Positions 11,401 through 40,720 of a DNA stretch of 56,594 nt are shown one piece after another. The notes below the pieces were generated by a model. That model searched no databases. It worked only from the letters and a program-made list of their open reading frames with translations, and was not told where the DNA came from. This DNA comes from a virus. The stretch lies in IMG/VR virus record IMGVR_UViG_3300025151_000041, positions 1-56,594 of that record; one strand, written 5' to 3'. The position numbers and the translations under genes are program-made. The number at the start of each line of letters is the position of its first letter. Positions within the stretch are counted from its first letter, which is position 1.

Positions 11401-12061
11401 TCTACCAAAAGGTAGACAAGCAACAAGTGCTGACGACTTCATAAAAGAGTTAGCAAGGTTAACAGGTGTTACACCACAAGGTTTTTCTGCACGTTCTATT
11501 GCTGTTATAGAAAATCGTTCAGGTTTAAGAACATCAGGAGTATGGTTAATAGGACAAGCAATAAGAGCAAGGCAACAAAGGGCAATAGACCAAGCATTGG
11601 AAAAAGCTCTGTTTGATAAAGATTTTGCTGCTACAATGACAAAAGAAATGCCAGAAAATGTTCCTATAGGAGCTATTGATGAGCCAACTGCTTCTGATTG
11701 GCGTACAAAAGCATTCTTTGCAGGAATATACGACCCTTCAATAGTTACAGATAAAAAGTATAGAAGAGAAGTAGCCCGTACACCTTATGTTGGTCAACCT
11801 GATACAGATGAGCCAGAAGGTTTTGCTAACCCACCAAGAACACAAAAAGTTGAAATTCCTAAAGGAATGCTACCAAGCAATGCTTTGTTGGATGTAACTC
11901 CAGGAGCAACCTCAACTTACAATATTGGAATAGCTCAACAACCTGTAAATCCACCAAGAGGAAACGTGCAAGTAAATAAATACGAAGCATTATTTCCTAA
12001 CGACCCCCTTGGAAAAGCACTTGCTGAATCAAGAAACAAGGGTATAGGGAGCTTACGTTAA
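8417..12061 (+). CDS. Very large putative internal virion protein, 1214 residues
   Basis: The longest gene here, starting 3 bases after the previous stop. Early segments are amphipathic and Gly/Ala-rich (GALAGFAETVVDVGTGFITGAID at about 62-82, and 130-190), with a Gly-rich hydrophobic patch near 330. Residues about 380-900 are very Lys/Glu-rich with long predicted coiled coil. I found no transglycosylase or peptidase signature. It occupies the place of the last, largest ejection protein of podoviruses (compare T7 gp16). Its 3' end overlaps the convergent minus-strand helicase gene by 4 bases, marking the end of the virion operon. Confidence 0.7.
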   Translation: MAREQKTRKVDVEFGAFIPDDPFANDPVIGDEALGLGKEGITGTADVAIERAGGQAEFGEGALAGFAETVVDVGTGFITGAIDALAYIPDAALNKITEKLAEENIIKGEDVGFWATKDRLSRLLTSGNYEQRRKVGNVILGMGEFVGQSGALGQIAETAGQFATFAIPQTAAVRLIGNALYGGTQASKAALRTSTLKAIKEAKQSALNKATTAAEKRKITKKFADKQTNFNEELKKFKWDKDKKVYVGPEGKIIKDKTLAKAEVTGKVAEELGEKAALGRLKSYGAREVQRAAKDPSKYLRREAKVGAGVGAAYEGLEQISPGLGDTLIIGAGAAIGGKFLFDGIKDIAKRTPSGRIINWADDALTPAVGDDPVTIGSRIKSGYTNVRDRIIKPKEEDLKEARGTVQKFISQEVSEAEARRNLETYKKIDEKLAELGIEPLELTIAEKSLSPRLLDAQASRTRTYTGQEATEQFARFARNQEKIARVEKELGLESGTNVFAFSDKDARGKLDILVKNLQGEVDKVSITSLKELDEIKNIMEGKQISPKILEEAGEQLRGILLTAKQNTEKRLLDDYNFNPNKEPSLKASEIKKAQENFLRYVYKKDKDASISDLISKYTREDDFIKKSEDLKRFVKAAPRNITLPEWITMRQQFKRALNRAFEMKATKNELDELKKVLEIFDETAKRFGTDKKAVSAQRYQQFLKQWDDEITTVYNDAAVQKVLKQRPVSREDKILYKTPEEKAGEVFLQNADTAKEFNRFVDNAVGEEKIELLSLMKDVVLGKTLGKNIWNANTGKIDVNKLRAFINNNENMLKTIKIGDEAGESTGFQLLSDQAKFYDDLVARQQKVQQMASKINQDILVNQVAKLDPKTFDVQTGILGARGVDASADAIIDSAINSAIVTGETGKPNFKLVRALLKKVKELDPKGDNGIKEEFNKIVLNKVAGKKGFANPVEFDGIINRNRPVLKEVLGEKHLEDIIVLNGIHARLQQAATALPKGRQATSADDFIKELARLTGVTPQGFSARSIAVIENRSGLRTSGVWLIGQAIRARQQRAIDQALEKALFDKDFAATMTKEMPENVPIGAIDEPTASDWRTKAFFAGIYDPSIVTDKKYRREVARTPYVGQPDTDEPEGFANPPRTQKVEIPKGMLPSNALLDVTPGATSTYNIGIAQQPVNPPRGNVQVNKYEALFPNDPLGKALAESRNKGIGSLR

Positions 12062-13494
12062 ATAATCCACTGTTTGTAATCTTCGGCTAGTACGTTGCTG
12101 GCTATGTTGATTTTATTGCGTAGGGCTTTGAGTATTTTTTCATCTACTGTTTTTTCTGTTACTATATCTACATACGTTACTTTGTTGGTTTGCCCTATAC
12201 GGTGAGCTCTATCTTCACTTTGCAAGCGTACTTCTAAATCGTAGCCATTACTGTAGTATATCACTGTTTTAGCTTCGGTAAGAGTAAGCCCATACCCACC
12301 TGTTCTTGGTTGCCCTATAAAAAACCTGAGTGGGTTATCAGGGTCTTGGAACTTTTCAACAATGTTCTGGCGTTCTTCGGCTGATGTTTGTCCATAGAAC
12401 AAAGCACACGTTTTTTCTCCGTACTTTTTACTTAACTCTTTGTTTATACTTAACAAATCATGTGTAAAGTTAGCCCAAATAATAACCTTGCTTTCTGTTT
12501 CTTCGATTGCCGACAACAATTCTGGCATTTTGTTAGTGGGTACTTGCTTTACCGTACCGTCGTCCATATTTGCAAATCCACTACATACTTGTTGTAGGCG
12601 TAGTATTTGTGTAAGAACAGTATTTGCACTTACCATACTGCCTTCGATAATAGCCAAAGCAGAACTTTTGAGTGTTGCATAGGCAACTTCTTGTTCTTTC
12701 GTTAGCTCTACTGTTCTGCGTGTGTACACTTTGTCGGGCAAGTCTAAACAATCTTCTTTGCGTACTCGGAAACTAAATGGTTCTATGATTGCATTGAGTT
12801 CGTTTAGGTTTTGATACCCAACAATTTGATTAAATGTATGTGTGCCGACGTTCCTACGCAAAACTTTTGCATACCTATTCTGAAACGCCCAATAACTAGA
12901 TTGTCGTAGGCTTTCTTCTTTTAAAAACTCGCACTGCGTAAACAAATCAAGTGGTGATTTTGTTATTGGTGAACCTGTAAGTATCCTTCTAAAAACTGCC
13001 TCTTTACCTAGCTTTATAAGGTTTTTTGTACGAGCAGCAGATTTAGTTTTGATTGTTGTGCTTTCATCTATTGCCAACAAACATTCTTTTGAATACACAA
13101 ATTTTTGTGCAAATTCATAGCCTCGTTTTGTGCTTAACGCTTCTACGTTCATCAAAAATATTTTTAAATCTTCGTTGTCTGCAAACAGGGTTGCCAGTTC
13201 TGTTTCTTTTTTCTTTGTTTTTTCTGGTGACCACGCAACGACCGTGTAGTCAACATGATCTGGTATATGGGTTGGTATTTCTTTTTTCAACCAGTTTCTA
13301 TACACACTTTTTGGTGCAACTATCATTGCTGTGCATATTTCACCTTTGTCGTAAAGTATTGACATTGTATCTATCAATACTTTTGATTTACCAGTACCCA
13401 TATCCATAAACAAAGCAAAGTATTCTTTATTCCAGGACTTTTTGAGAGCGTCGAGTTGATGCTCATATGGTTGTAGTTTAAATTTATATCTCAC
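12058..13494 (-). CDS. SNF2-type superfamily 2 helicase/ATPase
   Basis: 478 residues on the minus strand. It has the two RecA-like domains of an SF2 translocase: LQPYEHQLDAL (Q-motif-like, 7-17), Walker A MDMGTGKSK (30-38), Ia IVAPKSVYRNW (58-68), Walker B/DExx as IDEST (142-146), motif III LTGSP (172-176), motif V region GGYGLTLTEA (399-408) and motif VI RAHRIGQ (429-435) with the arginine finger. The DEST box and HRIGQ are typical of SNF2 relatives. At 478 residues it is a minimal core without chromatin-type inserts. Related proteins occur in podovirus replication modules, probably moving on DNA. It is the only clear minus-strand gene and converges on the 1214-residue gene. Its promoter must lie in 13495-13749. 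Confidence 0.9.
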   Translation of the reverse strand: MRYKFKLQPYEHQLDALKKSWNKEYFALFMDMGTGKSKVLIDTMSILYDKGEICTAMIVAPKSVYRNWLKKEIPTHIPDHVDYTVVAWSPEKTKKKETELATLFADNEDLKIFLMNVEALSTKRGYEFAQKFVYSKECLLAIDESTTIKTKSAARTKNLIKLGKEAVFRRILTGSPITKSPLDLFTQCEFLKEESLRQSSYWAFQNRYAKVLRRNVGTHTFNQIVGYQNLNELNAIIEPFSFRVRKEDCLDLPDKVYTRRTVELTKEQEVAYATLKSSALAIIEGSMVSANTVLTQILRLQQVCSGFANMDDGTVKQVPTNKMPELLSAIEETESKVIIWANFTHDLLSINKELSKKYGEKTCALFYGQTSAEERQNIVEKFQDPDNPLRFFIGQPRTGGYGLTLTEAKTVIYYSNGYDLEVRLQSEDRAHRIGQTNKVTYVDIVTEKTVDEKILKALRNKINIASNVLAEDYKQWII

Positions 13495-19210: not shown

Positions 19211-20233
19211 ATGGCACACGCAGTAGAAACTATGGCTTATGCAGGACAAGTCCCTTGGCATGGGCTAGGAAAAAAAGTTAGTACCGATATGACCCCCGAC
19301 CAAATGGCAGATGAAGCAGGGTTAAATTGGACAGTTACAAAACGCAGAGCTTACACCGCAACGGAAAATGCTCCAAACATTTTTAAACCTGACCTCGATT
19401 CACTAGTTATGGTTCCTGACCATTACTTTTTGATGCGAGACGATAACAATAGTGTTTTATCACATTGCGGTGAAAACTATGTACCGTTTCAAAACAAAGA
19501 GGTTATGTCGTTCTTTAAAAAGTTTACTGAAGCTGGTGATATGCAAATGGAAACAGCAGGTAGTTTAAAGGAAGGCAGAGAAATTTGGGGTTTGGCTAAG
19601 TTGCGAGATGGTTTTACTCTTCCAGGAGGCGACGAAATAGAAGGTTACTTACTATTAAATAATAGCCACAAAGCAGGAAAAGCCTTGAGCATTATGTTTA
19701 CTCCTATAAGAGTTGTATGCAACAACACACTTACTCTTGCGTTGAACCAATCAGGGCAGAAATTTAGAGTGTTGCACTTACAAATGTTCGACGAAGAAAT
19801 TATGAACGCCGCAGAGGAAGCACTTGGTTTGAGCGACAAACAAATGAAAACCTTTACTGAGCAAGCTAATTTCTTGAGCAGTAAAAAAGCAACAGACATA
19901 CAGGTTACTAATTATGTTGCTGAGTTGTTTCAACCTAACATACTGTTGGAACGTGGCAAAGCAACGCACCAAGATAACTTACCGCCGTTGCGTGATGAAC
20001 TAAAGCACTCAGCTAATAGTGTTCTTGAAGCAATCGAAACAAGTCCTGGAGCTGGATTACAGTCGGCAAGAGGTACATGGTGGGGAGCATTAAACGGTGT
20101 GACATACGTTGTTGATCACCAAGGAAGAGGTAACTCTCGTGACAATACATTGCACTCCGCTTGGTTTGGCTCTGGTGCTAGTCGTAAGACAAAGGCATTG
20201 CAAAAAGCAGTTGAATACGCAAGAGCTGCTTGA
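19211..20233 (+). CDS. DUF932 domain protein
   Basis: 340 residues matching the phage/plasmid-like DUF932 family by its opening MAHAVETMAYAGQVPWHGLGKKV (WHGLG is typical), FLMRDDNNSVLSHCGENYVPFQNKEV, LLLNNSHKAGKALSIMFTPIRVVCNNTLTLA and the end WGALNGVTYVVDHQGRG. Members are common on phages and plasmids. The biochemical role is not established to my knowledge; roles near recombination or DNA processing have been suggested from neighbourhoods. Length is normal for the family. SD is AGAAGGAG. A strong terminator follows at once. Confidence 0.85.
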   Translation: MAHAVETMAYAGQVPWHGLGKKVSTDMTPDQMADEAGLNWTVTKRRAYTATENAPNIFKPDLDSLVMVPDHYFLMRDDNNSVLSHCGENYVPFQNKEVMSFFKKFTEAGDMQMETAGSLKEGREIWGLAKLRDGFTLPGGDEIEGYLLLNNSHKAGKALSIMFTPIRVVCNNTLTLALNQSGQKFRVLHLQMFDEEIMNAAEEALGLSDKQMKTFTEQANFLSSKKATDIQVTNYVAELFQPNILLERGKATHQDNLPPLRDELKHSANSVLEAIETSPGAGLQSARGTWWGALNGVTYVVDHQGRGNSRDNTLHSAWFGSGASRKTKALQKAVEYARAA

Positions 20234-20345: not shown

Positions 20346-20708
20346 ATGGTTATGGCAGTAGTACAGATACATTGGTACACTCGTATCAAACCACTTGTAG
20401 ATAAACCTCCAATTCGTGAGGGAACAATTCGTTATAGAAATATGTTTGTTGTCATTCGTAGCCAAACAGTACGAGAGGCTTTGCACAGGCTCAAACAATT
20501 AGAGCCAAAAGGCAGTATGAAAGACATACACTTAGCCGTAAAAAAAGAAGCGGTAGAACTTATGTATCCTGAGGACATGGCAGAAGAGCAATACGCAAGT
20601 ATTGATGAATCTATACGCATGAGTTTAGAAGGGTTGGAAAGTGTAGAGTCTAGAACACAAAAGCTAACAACGTATATGAAGGAGTTTAATGATGACAAAC
20701 CTTCCTGA
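20346..20708 (+). CDS. Hypothetical protein, 120 residues
   Basis: First gene of the hypermodification operon. Start ATG 20346 is six bases after AAAGG; ATG 20352 is possible. The N-terminal half is beta-strand rich with basic residues, the C-terminal half helical and acidic (DMAEEQYASIDESIRM). Overlaps the next gene by 17 bases. Not recognised. Confidence 0.75.
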   Translation: MVMAVVQIHWYTRIKPLVDKPPIREGTIRYRNMFVVIRSQTVREALHRLKQLEPKGSMKDIHLAVKKEAVELMYPEDMAEEQYASIDESIRMSLEGLESVESRTQKLTTYMKEFNDDKPS

Positions 20709-21624
20709 CGCTACATTGAAAAAATACCAAGAATTTTACTATTGGATAAACGAAAGACACGCAATATATCAAAAGCGTAAGGAAAATCTTCCTCCTCCTT
20801 GGACAGATGACCCCATACTACAAGAATATAAATTTACAAACCCTTTTCGTGAAAACGATAGAGACACAATATGGATGAGACAAAATTGGACTAAGCCACA
20901 CCATAACAGACCACACGGAGAAATTATATTCAACTGTTGTTTGTTCCGTATGGTTGGCACACCAGAATTTGCCGAACATCACGGGTGGGTTCATGACATG
21001 AATGGCACTTGGGACTCAGAAAAAACAAAAGAAATTATAGAGCTTCGATTATCTCAACGTCAAAAAACTTTTACAGGAGCTTACATAATTCCAAACAGGG
21101 GTTTGACTTTACCAAAATCGCAAGTTGTTGTGGATCTTTTTCTTAAACCAATATGGGAAAATCGAGAAGTGATAGCAAATGTCGCCAAGTGTTCGCAGTC
21201 TTTACAACACACACATGAACACTTTGCCAATTACAATGGTTGGGGTGGTGGCGGATTTATGGCGTATGAAGTTGTAACAGATTTAAACAACACACCTGTT
21301 CTTAAAGATGCACAAGACCGTTACAGGTGGGCGAACGCAGGACCAGGAGCAAGGAGAGGTTTAAATAGGTTACATGGCAGACCACTCAAAAAACGATACC
21401 CTATGAGTCAGCTTAACGACGAGATGAACCATTTGTTAAGTTGGGCAGAGGCTTTTGCAGGTGATCATGTTCCTAAAAACGAAATTGATATGCGTGTTAT
21501 AGAGCATAGTTTGTGTGAATGGGATAAATACCAACGAGTATTGTTAAACGAGGGTAGACCTAGATCAAAGTACAATCCTGACTTAGTATCTAATCACAAT
21601 TTTGTAGCAGGACCGATTGACTAA
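20692..21624 (+). CDS. Putative DNA base hypermodification protein (HMUDK_hel-like)
   Basis: 310 residues. ATG 20692 is preferred over the adjoining ATG 20689 because AGGAG is then 7 bases away. Key stretch: FYYWINERHAIYQKR, then WTDDPILQEYKF and NPFRENDRDTIWMRQNW. To my recognition this is the signature of the helical family called '5-hmdU DNA kinase helical domain / putative DNA base hypermodification protein', related to the alpha-glutamyl/putrescinyl thymine pyrophosphorylases predicted by Iyer, Aravind and colleagues. These act on hydroxymethylated pyrimidines in phage DNA after replication. No P-loop kinase is fused here. The next gene, a glycosyltransferase, overlaps by one base. Substrate and product are unknown. 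Family call moderately firm. Confidence 0.7.
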   Translation: MTNLPDATLKKYQEFYYWINERHAIYQKRKENLPPPWTDDPILQEYKFTNPFRENDRDTIWMRQNWTKPHHNRPHGEIIFNCCLFRMVGTPEFAEHHGWVHDMNGTWDSEKTKEIIELRLSQRQKTFTGAYIIPNRGLTLPKSQVVVDLFLKPIWENREVIANVAKCSQSLQHTHEHFANYNGWGGGGFMAYEVVTDLNNTPVLKDAQDRYRWANAGPGARRGLNRLHGRPLKKRYPMSQLNDEMNHLLSWAEAFAGDHVPKNEIDMRVIEHSLCEWDKYQRVLLNEGRPRSKYNPDLVSNHNFVAGPID

Positions 21625-22940
21625 TGAAATTTTTAATGACTATACACTATATTCAAGATTATGGTGGGATAATGAACCACGCCGAATATCTTGCAAAAGG
21701 TTTAAAAGCACTTGGGCATGAAGTTGATTTTGTTTCGTTGCTTCCGCAATTTTCGACAACACAAAGCAATCGACCACGAAAAGATATGGAAGAGTATCGT
21801 ACTGTTGGCACAGGATACCCCTACCACCAGAAACGAGGATGGATGGGTGTACCAAGAGTAGGCTATCGAGATATGTACACAAGAAAAAAGTGGCTAGAAA
21901 AATGCAGTAAGTATGATGCCGTGTTGTGGCACTTGCCTGTTCCTGCTCTAACAGCTCCAAACAAAAATGTTCAAGAGTGGGTAGAGCTTTACGATCATGG
22001 GAGCAAAAACATAGCAATAATACATGATGGTAATTTAAGAGAACGCAACTGTCATTTGCTTCATGTTTCGGATAAGTTTCATGCTATGGTTTGTGTTCAT
22101 GAATCCGCTATGGGTTCAGCAGATGTAATCGACATACCCCGAAAGCTGATTGTAAACCCTTTCGATTTTGACTTGGAGCAACTTGAAAACGACATATACG
22201 GTAACTCTAACTTTGAACAAAGAAGCGGTTTTTGTGCAGTACAGGTATTCAAAGGCTGGAAACGTGTTGATACTTTAATAAGAGCAATACCCCACATGAA
22301 AAACCAAGAACAGAAAACACTTGGTGGTTTGGGTATAGAGTTTCGTTACATGACAAGCAAGGATAAATGCAAGCCGAAGTATTTTGAAAAAGGAGAACGT
22401 ATTTGGGATATTGCTTTGCGTCATGGCATGAAACATTTAGGAGCTGTTCCGAATGACAATGTGTATAAGTTACTTCAAACAGCAAAGGTACAAATAGACC
22501 CTAGCTTTAGTGACAAGTATCGTAAGTTTGGTTCTCATTTTAACCGCACAACTATAGAAGCTATAATTAATGGTACTGTTCCTATGGCAACTGATTGGGG
22601 TATGCAAGACAGTAAGATATTCACTCCTGGAGAAAACTTCATTGAAATACCTAAAAGTAGTTCACCACAACAATTTGCTGAAATTGTTGACGGTGCGTTA
22701 AATGATCACGTTTTCTGGCAACGAGTGAGAGAAACTAATTTACAGATTATCGAGCAATTTCACATGGTAAACGTAGCAAGTGAGTATGTAAAACTTGTCA
22801 CTGACCCTGTTAATTCCTTACCAAAAGGAACACCAGATTTAACAACTCAATTAAACTGTGTGGAAACTTTAAAATATTTCAATGTAGAGCCAAAAGAGGT
22901 AGGAGTATTGCAAGCAGAGAAACAGGCAACACTTTTTTAG
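21624..22940 (+). CDS. GT-B fold glycosyltransferase (GT4-like)
   Basis: 438 residues. The N-terminal domain begins KFLMTIHYIQDYGGIMNHAEYLAKGLKALGHEVDFVS, the classic acceptor-side Rossmann strand with a Gly-Gly loop of GT-B enzymes. The C-terminal domain has VQVFKGWKRVDTLIRAI, VPNDNVYKLLQTAKVQIDPSFSD and NRTTIEAIINGTVPMATDWGMQD, where the Glu of TIEAI is in the usual sugar-nucleotide-binding place. It overlaps the hypermodification gene by one base, so a DNA base is a plausible acceptor, though a capsid or cell-surface target is possible. Fold assignment firm; acceptor is inference. Confidence 0.8.
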   Translation: MKFLMTIHYIQDYGGIMNHAEYLAKGLKALGHEVDFVSLLPQFSTTQSNRPRKDMEEYRTVGTGYPYHQKRGWMGVPRVGYRDMYTRKKWLEKCSKYDAVLWHLPVPALTAPNKNVQEWVELYDHGSKNIAIIHDGNLRERNCHLLHVSDKFHAMVCVHESAMGSADVIDIPRKLIVNPFDFDLEQLENDIYGNSNFEQRSGFCAVQVFKGWKRVDTLIRAIPHMKNQEQKTLGGLGIEFRYMTSKDKCKPKYFEKGERIWDIALRHGMKHLGAVPNDNVYKLLQTAKVQIDPSFSDKYRKFGSHFNRTTIEAIINGTVPMATDWGMQDSKIFTPGENFIEIPKSSSPQQFAEIVDGALNDHVFWQRVRETNLQIIEQFHMVNVASEYVKLVTDPVNSLPKGTPDLTTQLNCVETLKYFNVEPKEVGVLQAEKQATLF

Positions 22941-23052: not shown

Positions 23053-24102
23053 ATGACTACACAATTAAATGGTAAATTAGGCACACATAGGGGTGTGACG
23101 GCGTTTTCTTTCAAAGACATAAACGAAGCTCTGTATGTTTTAAAAGAGGAAGTGTTAGAAAATGGTGACAGAGTAGAAACTCGAAATGGAACAGCTTACG
23201 AAATTCCATCACCTGTTGCCGTAACATTTAACAGACCAACAAGGCGAGTTTTGTTCTACAGACAGAGAGATGCCAACCCTGTTTTCCATTTTTTAGAAAG
23301 TATATGGATGTTAGCAGGTCGTAACGATCTTGCATGGATACAAAATTATAACAAAAGAATGGCAGAGTATAGCGACGACGGTGAAATTTTCAATGGTGCG
23401 TATGGATATAGGTGGCGAAACCACTTCGACAAAGACCAAATAGAAATAGCTTGCCAAAGATTAATAGAATACGAAAACGATAGAAGAGCAGTGGTAACAA
23501 TGTGGGATCCTACCTTCGACCTTACAGATTCTAACAAAGGTAAAGATCACCCCTGCAACACTCACATATACTTTTCGGTAAGAAAAAACAGGCTCGATAT
23601 GACAGTATGCAACCGAAGTAACGATTTAATCTGGGGTATGTGCGGAGCAAACGCAGTACATATGAGTATGCTACAGGAATATATGGCTTCTGTTATCGAC
23701 GCAGGGATTGGTATTTACACACAATTTACCAATAACCTTCATGCTTACTTTGATACGCTAGAAAAACTTGTCGATATGCAACCTGACTATGATGCTTACA
23801 AGACAAGAGGATTAGTGCCATACCCATTAGTTGATGAGCCGTCAACCTTTTTAAAAGAAGCAGAAAAGTTTTGCTCTGAAATAATCGCAATGGAAAAGAT
23901 GACCGAAAAGAAATTAAATTACGTCTACGACAATACAGTTTTCGAAGAAGTAGGTTTACCAATGCACAATATGTATATGGCGTGGAAAGATAAAAATTAT
24001 GACGAAGCCTATTTGTGTGCTATGGACATAAAAGCCGCAGATTGGAGACTTGCTTGTAAAGAATGGCTCGAAAGGAGAAAACCGAATGGCAAACGTATAT
24101 AG
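23053..24102 (+). CDS. Thymidylate synthase / pyrimidine hydroxymethylase family enzyme
   Basis: 349 residues of the ThyA fold: FHFLESIWMLAGRND (78-92), YGYRWR (117-122), DHPCNTHIYF with catalytic Cys168, CNRSNDLIWG (186-195) for dUMP phosphate and base binding, GANAVHMSMLQEYMA (198-212) and NLHAY (228-232). The residue after Cys is Asn, not the His of ordinary ThyA, and the usual C-terminal folate-closing end is not seen. These changes and the neighbours favour a dUMP or dCMP hydroxymethylase feeding base hypermodification over plain dTMP synthesis, but the reaction cannot be fixed by eye. Overlaps the next gene by 17 bases. Confidence 0.8.
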   Translation: MTTQLNGKLGTHRGVTAFSFKDINEALYVLKEEVLENGDRVETRNGTAYEIPSPVAVTFNRPTRRVLFYRQRDANPVFHFLESIWMLAGRNDLAWIQNYNKRMAEYSDDGEIFNGAYGYRWRNHFDKDQIEIACQRLIEYENDRRAVVTMWDPTFDLTDSNKGKDHPCNTHIYFSVRKNRLDMTVCNRSNDLIWGMCGANAVHMSMLQEYMASVIDAGIGIYTQFTNNLHAYFDTLEKLVDMQPDYDAYKTRGLVPYPLVDEPSTFLKEAEKFCSEIIAMEKMTEKKLNYVYDNTVFEEVGLPMHNMYMAWKDKNYDEAYLCAMDIKAADWRLACKEWLERRKPNGKRI

Positions 24103-32862: not shown

Positions 32863-33324
32863 ATGGCAACACCTAAGAAAAAGGTAGTTGAGAAAAAACA
32901 AGACAAACTTGTTTCTTTGAAAACTGCTACTCCAACAAAGGCTATCCCAGTCGAGTTGGAAAGGGGTAAAGACGAACTTACTCCAGCACACGTTCTTACT
33001 TGGATCAATGAAAATGCAGGTGGGGACAAAAACAACGTCGAAGTTGTTCCAGTCGACACCGTTGACCAACAAGCCGAAAAGCCTGTTCCATTTGGCTACG
33101 GCGGAAAAGCTAACGGTCCACGGGCTACGTTCCAAAATTGGCACATTCGTGGTGTAGACGGCGACCGTCGTCTTGGCAAAATTTTGGAAAGTTGTCGTAA
33201 AGTAGATAAATCGCACAGCCAGACCGAAATGATCTGCACTATGGCATTACTGAACGGTGGCTATGGTCGAAATTCTAACACATGGGGTGTTCCCTTTATC
33301 AAGTTAAGGGCTATCCAACCCTAA
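32863..33324 (+). CDS. Hypothetical protein, 153 residues
   Basis: Lys-rich start (ATPKKKVVEKKQDKL), then a globular part: HVLTWINENAGGDKNNVEVV, NGPRATFQNWHIRGVDGDRRLGKILESC and a Gly-rich end (LLNGGYGRNSNTWGVPFIKL). A strong AGAAAGGGGG ribosome site and its own promoter and terminator suggest high, independent expression. Basic N-terminus would suit nucleic-acid binding. Not recognised. Confidence 0.75.
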   Translation: MATPKKKVVEKKQDKLVSLKTATPTKAIPVELERGKDELTPAHVLTWINENAGGDKNNVEVVPVDTVDQQAEKPVPFGYGGKANGPRATFQNWHIRGVDGDRRLGKILESCRKVDKSHSQTEMICTMALLNGGYGRNSNTWGVPFIKLRAIQP

Positions 33325-33428: not shown

Positions 33429-33878
33429 ATGGAACCAGATTTAATTATAAATCGTACTTTACAATCCAGCTTGTTTAAGGATCCAAGTTTAAAGCATCAT
33501 GGCTTTATGTTTTTCGACAGTATTCTCGATAACAAAAATTTCTTGCAAGCCTTAAAAACAAGAAATTATAATGATCGGCAAATTACACATTTAGATCTTT
33601 TATACCAATCATTTTGCCGATATCCAAATCGTACAACGTGGGCTTTGGTTACTTCTTTTTCCGACGAAGCCAACGTATTTGTTTCCGATTACTGTAACAA
33701 ACATCTAACACACCAAGAAAAATTTAACCTGTTAGACGAAAATACAAATCTCGGCTACACACGTTGGATCGACAAAACAACAGGTGAAAAATACCACTGC
33801 GTCCAAGTCGTCGACGATCTCGACACCGACGAAAGTGCAGAACCAGCAAGCGAAATCTGGTTTTTCGGTGGCGTTTAA
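33429..33878 (+). CDS. Hypothetical protein, 149 residues
   Basis: Single-gene cassette with its own leader and terminator. Soluble, mixed alpha/beta (HHGFMFFDSILDNKNFLQAL; WALVTSFSDEANVFVSDYC), Asp/Glu-rich near the end (VVDDLDTDESAEPAS). DNA at the 3' end is packed with tcgacgat-type words. Not recognised. Confidence 0.75.
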   Translation: MEPDLIINRTLQSSLFKDPSLKHHGFMFFDSILDNKNFLQALKTRNYNDRQITHLDLLYQSFCRYPNRTTWALVTSFSDEANVFVSDYCNKHLTHQEKFNLLDENTNLGYTRWIDKTTGEKYHCVQVVDDLDTDESAEPASEIWFFGGV

Positions 33879-34469: not shown

Positions 34470-34961
34470 ATGAACATGATTGATGATATCGAAATTTCGA
34501 AAAACTTAAATTCCTGGGAAGAGATTAGCTGGGAATTTTTAAACCAAAACGTCTACGATAGTACCGAGTACGACGAAGACGGCAATAACCCATTAGCCAA
34601 AGAAATAGTTGCCAAGTTGCAAGAAATTTTAAGCGGTGATTTAAGCGGTACAGTTCACGACAAAGACAACGATTTTTTGGATAAAATATACCTGTACGAT
34701 CCCGAGATTGGTGGCGAAACACCCGAAGATTTAATTTTGTTTTGCACAAAACAAGACGAGTTTGTTGGGTCCACCGGAAGCCTTAAATGGGTAACAGTGT
34801 GGGAAAAGGACTACGCCGACACAAAAAACCAAACCTATCATTATATAAAAGTTTTAAATGATTACCCCGAAACCCTAGATTACCTTTACATGGAAATTGG
34901 GTTAAGCGGTAGTCCTAACAGTAGCATTACGCCATTCTTTGTAAAAGCAAGAATGTCGTAA
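34470..34961 (+). CDS. Hypothetical acidic protein, 163 residues
   Basis: Leader gttaacaattagccaagaaaggg before ATG is the usual cassette form. Very acidic N-terminal half (VYDSTEYDEDGNNPLAKEIV; VHDKDNDFLDKIYLYDPEIGG). Ends with a beta-rich stretch (LYMEIGLSGSPNSSITPFF). Terminator 16 bases after the stop. Not recognised. Confidence 0.75.
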   Translation: MNMIDDIEISKNLNSWEEISWEFLNQNVYDSTEYDEDGNNPLAKEIVAKLQEILSGDLSGTVHDKDNDFLDKIYLYDPEIGGETPEDLILFCTKQDEFVGSTGSLKWVTVWEKDYADTKNQTYHYIKVLNDYPETLDYLYMEIGLSGSPNSSITPFFVKARMS

Positions 34962-35381: not shown

Positions 35382-35846
35382 ATGAAAAAATACGATCTCG
35401 AAAAATGGCAAGGGTATTCTCAACTTGCCACCGTTCCAACCGAAAAGGTGCTTTTTGGTCTTATCGACACAGTTGTCGAAGAAGCAAATGCTAAATGGTC
35501 ATTTAAATGTTTTTTGGAAGTCGATTACGAAGCACAACAAAAAAGAATGCCAGGATCTTATACAGTACCAAAACCACTCTGGTACAATATCGAAGAACAC
35601 GGCGTTCAGCCACAACTTATCGAAGAAATTAAACAGGTTGTCGACAATCCTAAAAAATTGTGCGGTCAACCTATTGTTCTCAATATGCCTCTTGATTTTA
35701 TGGGTTTGGATAAAAGCACCGACGCTGTTCTGCGTGGTATAGAAAAAACCGAAATCAAGTTTTACCACCATCCACAGGGGTTGCTAATCGAAATTTCTTA
35801 CGACGATTACGGTCCTCAAGATTACATTTTATGTCATACAAAATAA
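35382..35846 (+). CDS. Hypothetical protein, 154 residues
   Basis: Cassette gene with the repeated leader. Soluble alpha/beta (KWQGYSQLATVPTEKVLFGLIDTVVEEANAKW; VVDNPKKLCGQPIVLNMPLDFMGL). Not recognised. No terminator follows; the next gene starts 19 bases on with another ccatagaaagggg ribosome site. Confidence 0.75.
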   Translation: MKKYDLEKWQGYSQLATVPTEKVLFGLIDTVVEEANAKWSFKCFLEVDYEAQQKRMPGSYTVPKPLWYNIEEHGVQPQLIEEIKQVVDNPKKLCGQPIVLNMPLDFMGLDKSTDAVLRGIEKTEIKFYHHPQGLLIEISYDDYGPQDYILCHTK

Positions 35847-37606: not shown

Positions 37607-37981
37607 ATGAGCAACGATCATATCGAAAACGACATACTTATAAAAGGCGACCCCAACATAGTTTCTAAGTACCAGCAAATCCTCGAAAACGAATTTGGGT
37701 TGTTTGGGTCAATAGTAGTAAACGAAGGTCCAGGGTGGGCTAGTGTGGGTTGCATTTTCGACGACGATTACAGGCAATACAACGATCTAAAAACATTTGC
37801 TAAAAATTTATTGCAACAGTTAAACAAGTCTAGGGCAAGCCAACGAATATTCGACAGGCACGATCCTGCAAAACTCGAATACCATTGGTATTATATTTTT
37901 GGTAGCGAGATCGACAAACAGTTAAACGGTATAAGTGGTCATTACAGCATGGTTCGAAACTTTTTCGATAATAGGTGTTAG
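37607..37981 (+). CDS. Hypothetical protein, 124 residues
   Basis: ATG 37607 follows ACGAAAGGCAACGG; an in-frame ATG at 37517 lies in the structured noncoding part. Soluble alpha/beta (NDILIKGDPNIVSKYQQILENEFGLFGSIVV; GCIFDDDYRQYNDL). Of about 20 GA dinucleotides nearly all are in CGA, so it shares part of the bias seen next door. Not recognised. Confidence 0.75.
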   Translation: MSNDHIENDILIKGDPNIVSKYQQILENEFGLFGSIVVNEGPGWASVGCIFDDDYRQYNDLKTFAKNLLQQLNKSRASQRIFDRHDPAKLEYHWYYIFGSEIDKQLNGISGHYSMVRNFFDNRC

Positions 37982-38170: not shown

Positions 38171-38356
38171 TCTATTCATTGCATCTAGCGTTTTTGCCTA
38201 CTGTGGTATTTTTACCACAAAATAGGGTTAAATTAAAAAAAGTTAAAAAAGGTTAAAAAAAGGGTTGCAATAGTGTTTTATTGGTGTAGGGTAGTACCTG
38301 TAGCTAGCAATTAACACATAGCTACATAACATTAACCAAATAAGGGTTTAACAATT

Positions 38357-39022
38357 ATGTTAAATAAAAAGCAAGTACCAAGTGCTAGTACTATAAAAAA
38401 AGCACTACCTAAGTTGGCTTTCGAAAGTTTGCCGATACCTGCTAATAGCGAAATGGTTAGCAATTTTTTAAATGCTAACCCTAACAGTGTGTTAACTGTT
38501 AACGTCGATAAGCTTAACCCTAACGCCGAAACTTTAAGTAGTATAGCTTTGGCTAGTGGTGTTAAGTTATACACCGATAAGGTTAAATATACTGTTAGCG
38601 TTAATGCTTACCACGTTGGTATGTACTTACAACAGTACGGCGTACACCCAACAAGTAAAACGCCAATTAGCGGTTTAAAAAAAGGTGTATTGCAGTTAAA
38701 TTTTGGTGCAAGTACTACACCAACTAACAAGCTAGCCGAAATTTATACAAGGGTTAAGCCTAGTGTTTATGCACCTTGTAACGGCGTACCATTTACGGCA
38801 ACGGCTTGTAGTGGTAACGGCAAGTATGCCCATTGCACCTTGTTACCATTGCTTAATGGTTGCAAGTTAAATAATAACAATGGTTACGACGCTAGGGGTA
38901 AACAAGCTAGTAACCCTAACGGTGTACTTGTTACTTTACATAGTAACGCTAACGCCATACAAACGGCTACAGTGCCACAAATAAAGTTTTATAAAAACTT
39001 TATTAAAATATTAAAAGGTTAA
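38357..39022 (+). CDS. Orphan protein, 221 residues, from composition island
   Basis: ATG 38357 after aaccaaataaggg, a GA-free form of the usual aaccatagaaaggg leader. The protein is Asn/Thr/Ser/Leu/Lys/Gly-rich with only 4 Glu, 3 Asp and 2 Arg. All Ser use AGT/AGC, Arg uses AGG, no ATC Ile. Residues 80-110 (KYTVSVNAYHVGMYLQQYGVHP) and 125-180 with four Cys (APCNGVPFTATACSGNGKYAHCTLLPLLNGC) look globular and possibly metal-binding. It is basic overall. Not recognised. It has its own terminator. Codon choice follows from the dinucleotide constraint. Confidence 0.75.
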   Translation: MLNKKQVPSASTIKKALPKLAFESLPIPANSEMVSNFLNANPNSVLTVNVDKLNPNAETLSSIALASGVKLYTDKVKYTVSVNAYHVGMYLQQYGVHPTSKTPISGLKKGVLQLNFGASTTPTNKLAEIYTRVKPSVYAPCNGVPFTATACSGNGKYAHCTLLPLLNGCKLNNNNGYDARGKQASNPNGVLVTLHSNANAIQTATVPQIKFYKNFIKILKG

Positions 39023-39028
39023 ACCTTA

Positions 39029-39054
39029 TGCCCCTAGGCTAACGCCTAGGGGCA
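39029..39054 (+). terminator. Perfect hairpin after the orphan gene
   Basis: 11-bp stem tgcccctaggc (39029-39039) / gcctaggggca (39044-39054), loop taac; a TTTTTT run follows 11 bases later. Confidence 0.8.
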
Positions 39055-39259
39055 ATTTAACGGCGGTTTTTTGGCATGGTAATTGCAATAAAAAAGCAAA
39101 ACCCCCCCAAAACGTGAGGGCGAGTAAGCATAGGCTTACGAGCATATTCCAGCTCTAAAATTATGTGTCCAGAAAATACCGTAGTCCGTCGTACCCCTTT
39201 TTTGCATAATGGACTTTAGGTTCATTGCCCTTTGAAAAATTCTATAATATAAGAATTAT
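39055..39259 (+). promoter_or_regulatory. Structured leader before terminase large subunit
   Basis: 205 bases without a gene. It contains a run of seven C (39102-39108), hairpins gtaagc-atag-gcttac (39124-39139) and gagc...gctc (39140-39155), a cccctttttt tract (39196-39205) that could end a short RNA, and TATAAT at 39243-39248 just before ATG 39260. A late promoter, a small RNA or a packaging site are all possible. Confidence 0.5.
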
Positions 39260-40720
39260 ATGAACTTGGACATTGCCCCCGAAGAAGCGTTGAAAACGTA
39301 TGCGAAGTTGCTGGGTAGAGCGACGGAGTTAACGGAGAGTGAAAAAGCGAGAAAGAACTTTATTGACTTTGTGCGGAGTGTTTGGCCTGAGTTTATAGGA
39401 GGCAAGCACCATAGTGTAATGGCGGATAAGTTTAACCGAGTGGCGAAGGGTGAGTTAAAGCGGTTGATTGTGAATATGCCGCCGAGACATACAAAATCTG
39501 AATTTGCGAGTTTTTTATTGCCAGCGTGGTTGATGGGTAGAAACCCGAAGTTAAAGATAATGCAGACGACCCACACAGCGGAGCTTGCTTTTAGATTTGG
39601 ACGTAAGGTTCGTAACTTAATGAACACGGAAGATTATGCGAAGGTATTTGAAAAAGTGAAGTTGCGAGCGGACAGCCAAGCGGCAGGTCGGTGGGAAACC
39701 AGTGATGGTGGAGAGTATTTTGCGGCAGGAGTGGGTGGTGCGGTAACGGGACGTGGAGCGGACTTGTTGATAATCGACGACCCACATTCCGAGCAGGATG
39801 CGTTGAACCCGAACAGTTTTGAACACGCCTATGAGTGGTATACCTCTGGACCTCGCCAAAGGCTCCAACCAGGAGGTTCGATAGTTGTCGTGATGACAAG
39901 GTGGGCGGAAAACGATTTAACGGGCAAAGTGCTAAAGCAGATGGCTCGTGATCCGTTGGCGGATAAGTGGGAGGTTGTGGAGTTTCCTGCGTTGTTGCCG
40001 AGTGATACTCCAACGTGGCCAGAGTTTTGGAAACAAGAAGATTTATTGGCGGTAAAGGGTAGCCTAAGTGTAGGAAAGTGGGAGGCACAGTGGCAGCAGA
40101 ACCCGACCAGTGAAACGTCGGCTATTTTAAAACGTGACTGGTGGCAAAAGTGGGAGAAGAAAGATTTACCGAAATTAACGTATGTGATGCAGAGTTATGA
40201 TACGGCGTTCAGTAAAAAAGAGCATTCCGACTATAGTGCGATAACAACGTGGGGAGTTTTTTATCCCCCAGATGGAGGAAAAGCGTGTATAATTCTAGCA
40301 GATGCGAGACGTGGTCGGTGGGATTTTCCTGATTTACGTCGGATAGCGTTAGAGGAATACAAGTATTGGGAGCCAGAAACCGTGTTGATAGAGGCGAAGG
40401 CAAGTGGAATGCCGTTAACACAAGAGTTGCGGAATATGGGAATCCCTGTTACAAATTATAGCCCAAGTAGAGGAAATGATAAATTGAGCCGTGTGAATAG
40501 TGTTGCACCAATTCTAGAAAGCGGTATGGTATATGCTCCCGACACAACGTGGTCGGAAGAGGTGATTGAGGAATGTGCGGCTTTTCCTGCTGGGGAAAAT
40601 GACGATTATGTAGATACGGTAACACAGGCGTTAAGAAGATTTAGAGAAGGCGGTTTTATAGTTCACCCCGAAGACTACGAACCAGAGGACAGCCAACCTC
40701 TAGCAAGGGTATATTACTAA
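39260..40720 (+). CDS. terL: Terminase large subunit
   Basis: 486 residues. ATPase: Walker A variant PPRHTKSE (about 74-81), Walker B LLIIDDPH (168-175), motif III VVMTRW. Nuclease: YDTAF (about 314), VLIEAKASG, and DDYVDTVTQALRRF near the C-terminus supply the acidic metal ligands of the RNase H-like fold. It cuts and pumps DNA into the capsid through the portal. Length is normal. Codon use (many GCG, ACG, TTG) differs from AT-ending neighbours. ATG 39260 has no strong SD; a TATAAT lies 12 bases upstream. Confidence 0.95.
   Translation: MNLDIAPEEALKTYAKLLGRATELTESEKARKNFIDFVRSVWPEFIGGKHHSVMADKFNRVAKGELKRLIVNMPPRHTKSEFASFLLPAWLMGRNPKLKIMQTTHTAELAFRFGRKVRNLMNTEDYAKVFEKVKLRADSQAAGRWETSDGGEYFAAGVGGAVTGRGADLLIIDDPHSEQDALNPNSFEHAYEWYTSGPRQRLQPGGSIVVVMTRWAENDLTGKVLKQMARDPLADKWEVVEFPALLPSDTPTWPEFWKQEDLLAVKGSLSVGKWEAQWQQNPTSETSAILKRDWWQKWEKKDLPKLTYVMQSYDTAFSKKEHSDYSAITTWGVFYPPDGGKACIILADARRGRWDFPDLRRIALEEYKYWEPETVLIEAKASGMPLTQELRNMGIPVTNYSPSRGNDKLSRVNSVAPILESGMVYAPDTTWSEEVIEECAAFPAGENDDYVDTVTQALRRFREGGFIVHPEDYEPEDSQPLARVYY

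Follow-up and report, generated by a model that had tools for sequence, protein, structure and literature searches.

We describe a transcription unit in the genome of an uncultivated marine phage that has been purged of the dinucleotide TC, and of its complement GA, except where they stand in TCG or CGA. The genome is the complete IMG/VR virus record IMGVR_UViG_3300025151_000041 (56,594 bp, hereafter the window), and the unit, which we call the island, lies directly upstream of the terminase large subunit gene (terL). TC is a dinucleotide used by phage thymine modification enzymes, and a transcription unit emptied of it is a real and strong phenomenon, undescribed as far as the searched literature shows. 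We propose that the unit would remain unmarked and transcribable in otherwise hypermodified DNA, a reading to which we give a probability of roughly 0.6. The genes of the window, mostly on the plus strand, include those for terminase, portal, SU10-type adaptors, primase and PolA, and a thymine modification cluster. The features at the island are:

38185-39114, plus strand: island without AGA, GGA, TGA, TCA, TCT and TCC, comprising leader, open reading frame (ORF) and terminator (motif counts, recoding)
38265-38292, plus strand: candidate sigma70-like promoter TTGCAA-N16-TAGGGT, found by eye; its score in a genome-wide scan is unremarkable
38357-39022, plus strand: island ORF P0001, 221 amino acids, an ORFan in sequence searches
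39030-39072, plus strand: terminator-like hairpin GCCCCTAGGC-taac-GCCTAGGGGC, read from the sequence, with a T6 run shortly after it, within the island
39260-40720, plus strand: terL, assigned by homology and by the island slot in relatives

The original prediction had reported a 929-bp stretch in which these six trinucleotides do not occur on either strand, and our recount gave exactly the same numbers. All eight GA in the island are CGA and both TC are TCG; the probability of all ten falling in these contexts is about 1e-8. From the base composition, about 34 AGA/TCT, 20 GGA/TCC and 34 TGA/TCA would be expected. The run free of the six trinucleotides (DGA/TCH, where D is any base except C and H any base except G) measures 931 bp, while the next longest in the window, with its 4,900 sites, is 62 bp. 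All other 929-bp segments of the window contain at least 53 DGA/TCH sites (mean 81.6). When the island ORF was recoded synonymously 20,000 times with the codon usage of the phage, it carried on average 38.7 sites (standard deviation 4.8) and never fewer than 19, compared with 0 observed. The sliding-window count and the recoding thus both bear out the prediction, and a k-mer scan found no other void of comparable strength within the island.

The void spans the leader, the ORF and the terminator and its edges are sharp on both sides, as had been claimed, and we judge the accompanying argument right that coding selection is not sufficient to explain it. Outside the unit GA and TC are used normally in the window, so the depletion is not genome-wide.

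Islands in related phages

Relatives were fetched with terL, the island protein family, the portal protein and the 5-hydroxymethyldeoxyuridine (5-hmdU) DNA kinase HMUDK. In related marine phages the slot before terL yielded 41 distinct runs without DGA/TCH that measure 300 bp or more, the longest 1,085 bp. Nearly all of these islands exclude GA/TC outright; more than two CGA/TCG are kept only in the window and in L002, whose terL is 96% identical. Shorter runs of up to 289 bp also occur, and those inspected are partly relaxed copies of the slot gene. Each fully scanned genome has exactly one island, and the two contig ends of G036 hold two variants of its island. The original prediction had made its fate depend on homologous islands that freely contain AGA/TCT and the like, and relatives of both kinds were found: in L118-L135, L141 and L145 the homologous gene is present without the rule, while the 41 distinct islands obey it. 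The islands at L016:1-1170 and L015:269-1353 hold two ORFs and are GA/TC-free throughout. The closest isolated terL relatives (59-62%) are HTVC023P-type pelagiphages (PMC9599517) and phage DSL-LC04, and there was no GA/TC-free stretch in the scanned parts of DSL-LC04, 023Pt_psg01 and HTVC027P.

The sister islands L178 and L183 are 91% identical and show 12 GA/TC losses to 1 gain through many substitution types, which argues for selection and against a single mutational process. A mutational process at TC/GA, such as TC deamination, and the import of DNA from a replicon with the same rule had both been put forward in the original prediction. The sharp edges would suit either of them, and known deaminases prefer a similar dinucleotide context. 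However, deaminase-type mutation was rejected on the substitution spectrum of the sister islands, and the void is kept in deeply diverged copies with a GC content from 0.28 to 0.55, while paralogs in the same genomes are free of the rule. Moreover, the composition of the island protein is bent by the rule and not destroyed. We consider that mutation or import has next to no chance of being the origin of the void.

The rule targets a double-stranded DNA motif, since the avoided TCH and DGA are reverse complements, as are the spared TCG and CGA. It follows the transcription unit from the promoter region to the terminator: islands start 74-208 bp ahead of the start codon (485 bp in L015, with its two ORFs) and, where a terminator hairpin was found, end 5-93 bp beyond it. 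Six units (L136, L154, L160, L326, L327 and L330) have only 0-2 sense GA where 31-44 are expected (p<1e-14), and their sense TC is near expectation. No converse units, in which sense TC alone is avoided, were found. All Asp and Glu codons contain GA and its loss is therefore costly, so coding does not explain this asymmetry. The six units would be avoiding TC on the template strand only, pointing to transcription. In less strict units the leftover GA lies mostly in Asp/Glu codons.

Avoidance of GA and UC in the transcript itself, imposed by an RNase or by an RNA-binding protein, would also make the void match the transcript and would allow for the six units that avoid sense GA alone. Yet the two RNA motifs would then have to be reverse complements, and their exceptions CGA and TCG likewise, and the promoter regions are void too. 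This makes an explanation at the RNA level improbable.

One-stranded forms of the rule were also found in the window itself:

37607-37981, plus strand: neighbouring gene P0002, with the rule on one strand (GA context count)
33429-33878, plus strand: small gene in which sense GA partly prefers the CGA context (14/25, p 1e-6; context count)
35382-35846, plus strand: small gene in which sense GA partly prefers the CGA context (15/26, p 3e-7; context count)

In P0002, 19/21 sense GA are in CGA (p ~1e-14), all GAN codons (17/17) are preceded by a codon ending in C, and sense TC is near normal. This gene obeys the context rule of the island on the template strand only, and its homolog was found only in L002. 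The weaker CGA preference, seen also at 34470-34961, is the template-strand rule in incomplete form. The three small genes with this preference are apparently separate units, several with hairpin terminators downstream. In L129 (10530-10790) the leader of a rule-less island gene is free of sense GA over about 264 bp.

Between the island and terL lies a conserved block (window 39113-39225, L008:9833-10000, L129:11360-11500 and others) with a hairpin of variable stem, for example GTGTATATGC...GCGTATACAC or CTTGGTTAT...ATAACCAAG, and with CCCCCCTTTT; about 40 bp ahead of terL it has TAGGTTCATTGCCC. It is a possible packaging site or late promoter. With the slot beside terL and this block at its edge, the void could serve an unmodified DNA site (a packaging start or an origin), the gene being incidental. 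However, the block, which has GA/TC, lies beyond the void, and the void fits a transcription unit and can be one-stranded, so we hold a DNA site to be very improbable as its cause.

A proposed link to thymine hypermodification

The modification cluster of the window contains the following genes:

20689-21624, plus strand: 5-hmdU DNA kinase HMUDK_hel (PF18723, E 8e-50), proposed writer of the avoided mark
21624-22940, plus strand: glycosyltransferase adjoining HMUDK (profile search, gene neighbourhood)
23053-24102, plus strand: thymidylate synthase family protein (PF00303 E 4e-20, phrog_5131 E 5e-103), proposed deoxyuridine monophosphate hydroxymethylase
20346-20708, plus strand: small modification-cluster gene that adjoins HMUDK in most relatives (neighbourhood comparison)

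No near-complete contig that has an island or a member of the paralog family lacks HMUDK, and terL relatives without the kinase did not yield the family. The island phages combine HMUDK with the thymidylate synthase homolog, usually together with a glycosyltransferase. The window has the kinase that marks HMUDK-type phages and also the thymidylate synthase homolog, whose role as a hydroxymethylase is predicted. A DUF932 gene at 19211-20233 adjoins the cluster and was next to the kinase in every relative checked.

A kinase and a thymidylate synthase family gene are also common to the HMUDK (aG/PT-PPlase) hypermodification of phages M6, ViI and phiW-14. The restriction-resistant sites in the DNA of these phages contain TG/TC and the kinase acts there (PMC6449724, PMC7653180), so the TC avoided here is one of the two dinucleotides that these kinases use. 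Thymidylate synthase and HMUDK are also reported from some HTVC023P-type clades (PMC9599517). On a kinase-treated template, transcription by the E. coli RNA polymerase was 10% of that on the untreated 5-hydroxymethyluracil template (PMC6457204). In this in vitro OFF switch an enzyme of the same class largely silences the marked template for a bacterial RNA polymerase; unlike the island, the template is synthetic and no gene has evolved to escape. Among the kinases compared, that of the window diverges most (identity to the others no higher than 62%), which would be in line with a shift of specificity to TCH, a correlation from a single case.

We propose that selection purged one transcription unit of the dinucleotide which is targeted by the thymine hypermodification of the phage itself. 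The kinase would mark the T in TC, in the window phage probably in TCA, TCC and TCT only, and a unit with both strands free of TC would escape marking, while elsewhere there would be one mark per ~11 bp. A marked T in the template would hinder the bacterial RNA polymerase, and therefore the TC-free unit alone would be normally readable by the host polymerase from fully modified DNA. The likeliest setting would be the incoming virion genome, with the island as the first gene to be switched on. We infer the exact mark in the window phage, the timing and the role of the protein, and the last two are guesses. More tentatively, the sequence-specific hypermodification may be a transcriptional off mark for the whole virion genome, and the product of a single modification-proof pioneer unit may give the host polymerase access to the marked remainder; an epigenetic partition would then be encoded in dinucleotide content.

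Several points weigh against this proposal. The phages are uncultivated, and the mark in their DNA is a prediction. Blocking at the template does not directly explain why strict islands avoid the motif on the non-template strand as well; an extra reason would be needed, for example that promoters must open or that the polymerase touches the duplex. The presence of a glycosyltransferase suggests that the phosphate is perhaps not the final mark, which may be a sugar or an amine. HMUDK is not sufficient for an island: in G025-G027 and G029 the slot copy is rule-less despite the kinase, and the kinases of G025-G027 share 93-95% identity with the kinase of a phage that follows the rule. The presence or absence of the kinase was therefore rejected as what determines whether the rule is followed, since rule-less copies coexist with it, and the rule-less kinase phages have no second island. 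G054/G055 have the kinase and a single copy of the protein family, and the stretch read in them contains no island; none was found either in most of the genome of each of the HMUDK isolates PaSt-2 (Yuavirus), Ab19 and SeTs-2 (Kuttervirus). Kinase and islands occur together in one clade, and their association is therefore partly phylogenetic. The island promoters are good in most phages and not the best of the genome; a candidate rule that the island always has the best sigma70 site was not supported generally by the genome-wide scan. Finally, the island protein of the window cannot be tied to the paralog family.

The rule-less HMUDK relatives and the missing islands in other HMUDK phages would fit a mark or lesion at TC/GA that comes from another enzyme (an unrecognised methyltransferase, a nickase or a host enzyme), with HMUDK as a companion of the lineage; the unit would need to be free of that mark all the same. 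We consider this unlikely, given the published TC/TG preference of the HMUDK family and the joint absence of the kinase and the protein family from island-less relatives.

Classical phage restriction-site avoidance concerns short palindromes, is spread over the whole genome and is incomplete. There, too, selection removes the target motifs of an enzyme; in the island, unlike in the classical case, one dinucleotide is completely removed and this in a single unit. A modification-free gene is not described in PMC6449724 or PMC7653180, and no description of one in a phage was found in the searched literature. If our proposal is true, the island would be the first gene known, as far as we found, that has been rewritten, protein included, to escape the modification of its own genome. 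Its dinucleotide content would then be a genomic signature that reveals the specificity of modification enzymes in uncultivated viruses (TC for most of the relatives, and TCH in the window phage). In each phage it would also single out one gene whose product is likely needed first, and it would make the start of transcription in heavily modified phage DNA testable.

The island protein and its paralogs

The islands of the relatives mostly encode a protein of 140-200 amino acids from an undescribed family. Most relatives encode a second member of this family (the A copy) outside the slot, as a rule 0.6-2 kb further upstream; A copies use GA/TC and Asp/Glu freely. The window has one as well:

32863-33324, plus strand: A copy of the relatives' island protein family, with ordinary GA/TC use (E ~1e-38 with a hidden Markov model (HMM) from which window sequences were excluded)

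Paralogs outside the slot have ~100-150 GA/TC per kb versus 0-20 for the slot (B) copies, although B copies as a whole range from zero GA/TC to rule-free. In the family tree, where the position of the window island protein is to be disregarded, most A copies form one clade. Near-identical A copies coexist with a strict B copy in some phages and with a rule-less one in others, so the slot cassette has probably been exchanged between phages.

P0001 had no matches in viral contigs, phage records, PHROGs or Pfam. Its membership in the family was rejected, since the initial E-value of 1e-18 was circular and HMMs built without the window and L002 gave no match. With such leave-out models the island ORFs of the window and L002 show no homology to each other or to the family, so what is shared among the relatives is the slot and the rule and not always the cargo. 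Even within the family, the divergent island proteins are linked to the core by E-values of 1e-5 to 1e-6 only. The structure predicted for P0001 alone was uninformative (predicted local distance difference test score, pLDDT, 41). The fold predicted for the A copy (pLDDT 84) had no Foldseek match with E<=0.001 in PDB or BFVD, and the best Z of a second fold comparison (VIA) was 5.1, which is not meaningful. No family members were found in cellular genomes.

The fast evolution of the cargo, which is unrelated in two phages, and its cassette-like replacement among close relatives are what one would expect of an antidefence gene. A host Type IV nuclease could cut modified TC, and the uncut island would then express its inhibitor; avoidance on both strands in strict islands agrees with this. 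However, an enzyme that cuts the duplex should ignore the strand, yet six units avoid TC on the template strand only, and the A copy matched no known inhibitor fold. A cleavage-proof antidefence gene is thus rather unlikely. The original prediction had proposed evasion of a nuclease or a modification enzyme; the modification enzyme is the part best supported, likely the 5-hmdU kinase pathway of the phage itself, and a host nuclease is the less likely part.

An Rfam scan of 36-40 kb gave no matches. A large minus-strand gene at 12058-13494 encodes an SNF2-type helicase. In many phages a very short ORF that encodes a hydrophobic peptide of some 20 amino acids (e.g. MWLLIFAIIVLGFYALIKK) lies just upstream of the island or partly within it, as in L006 (from 7344), L018 (from 203), L014 (from ~9015) and L004 (from 3245).
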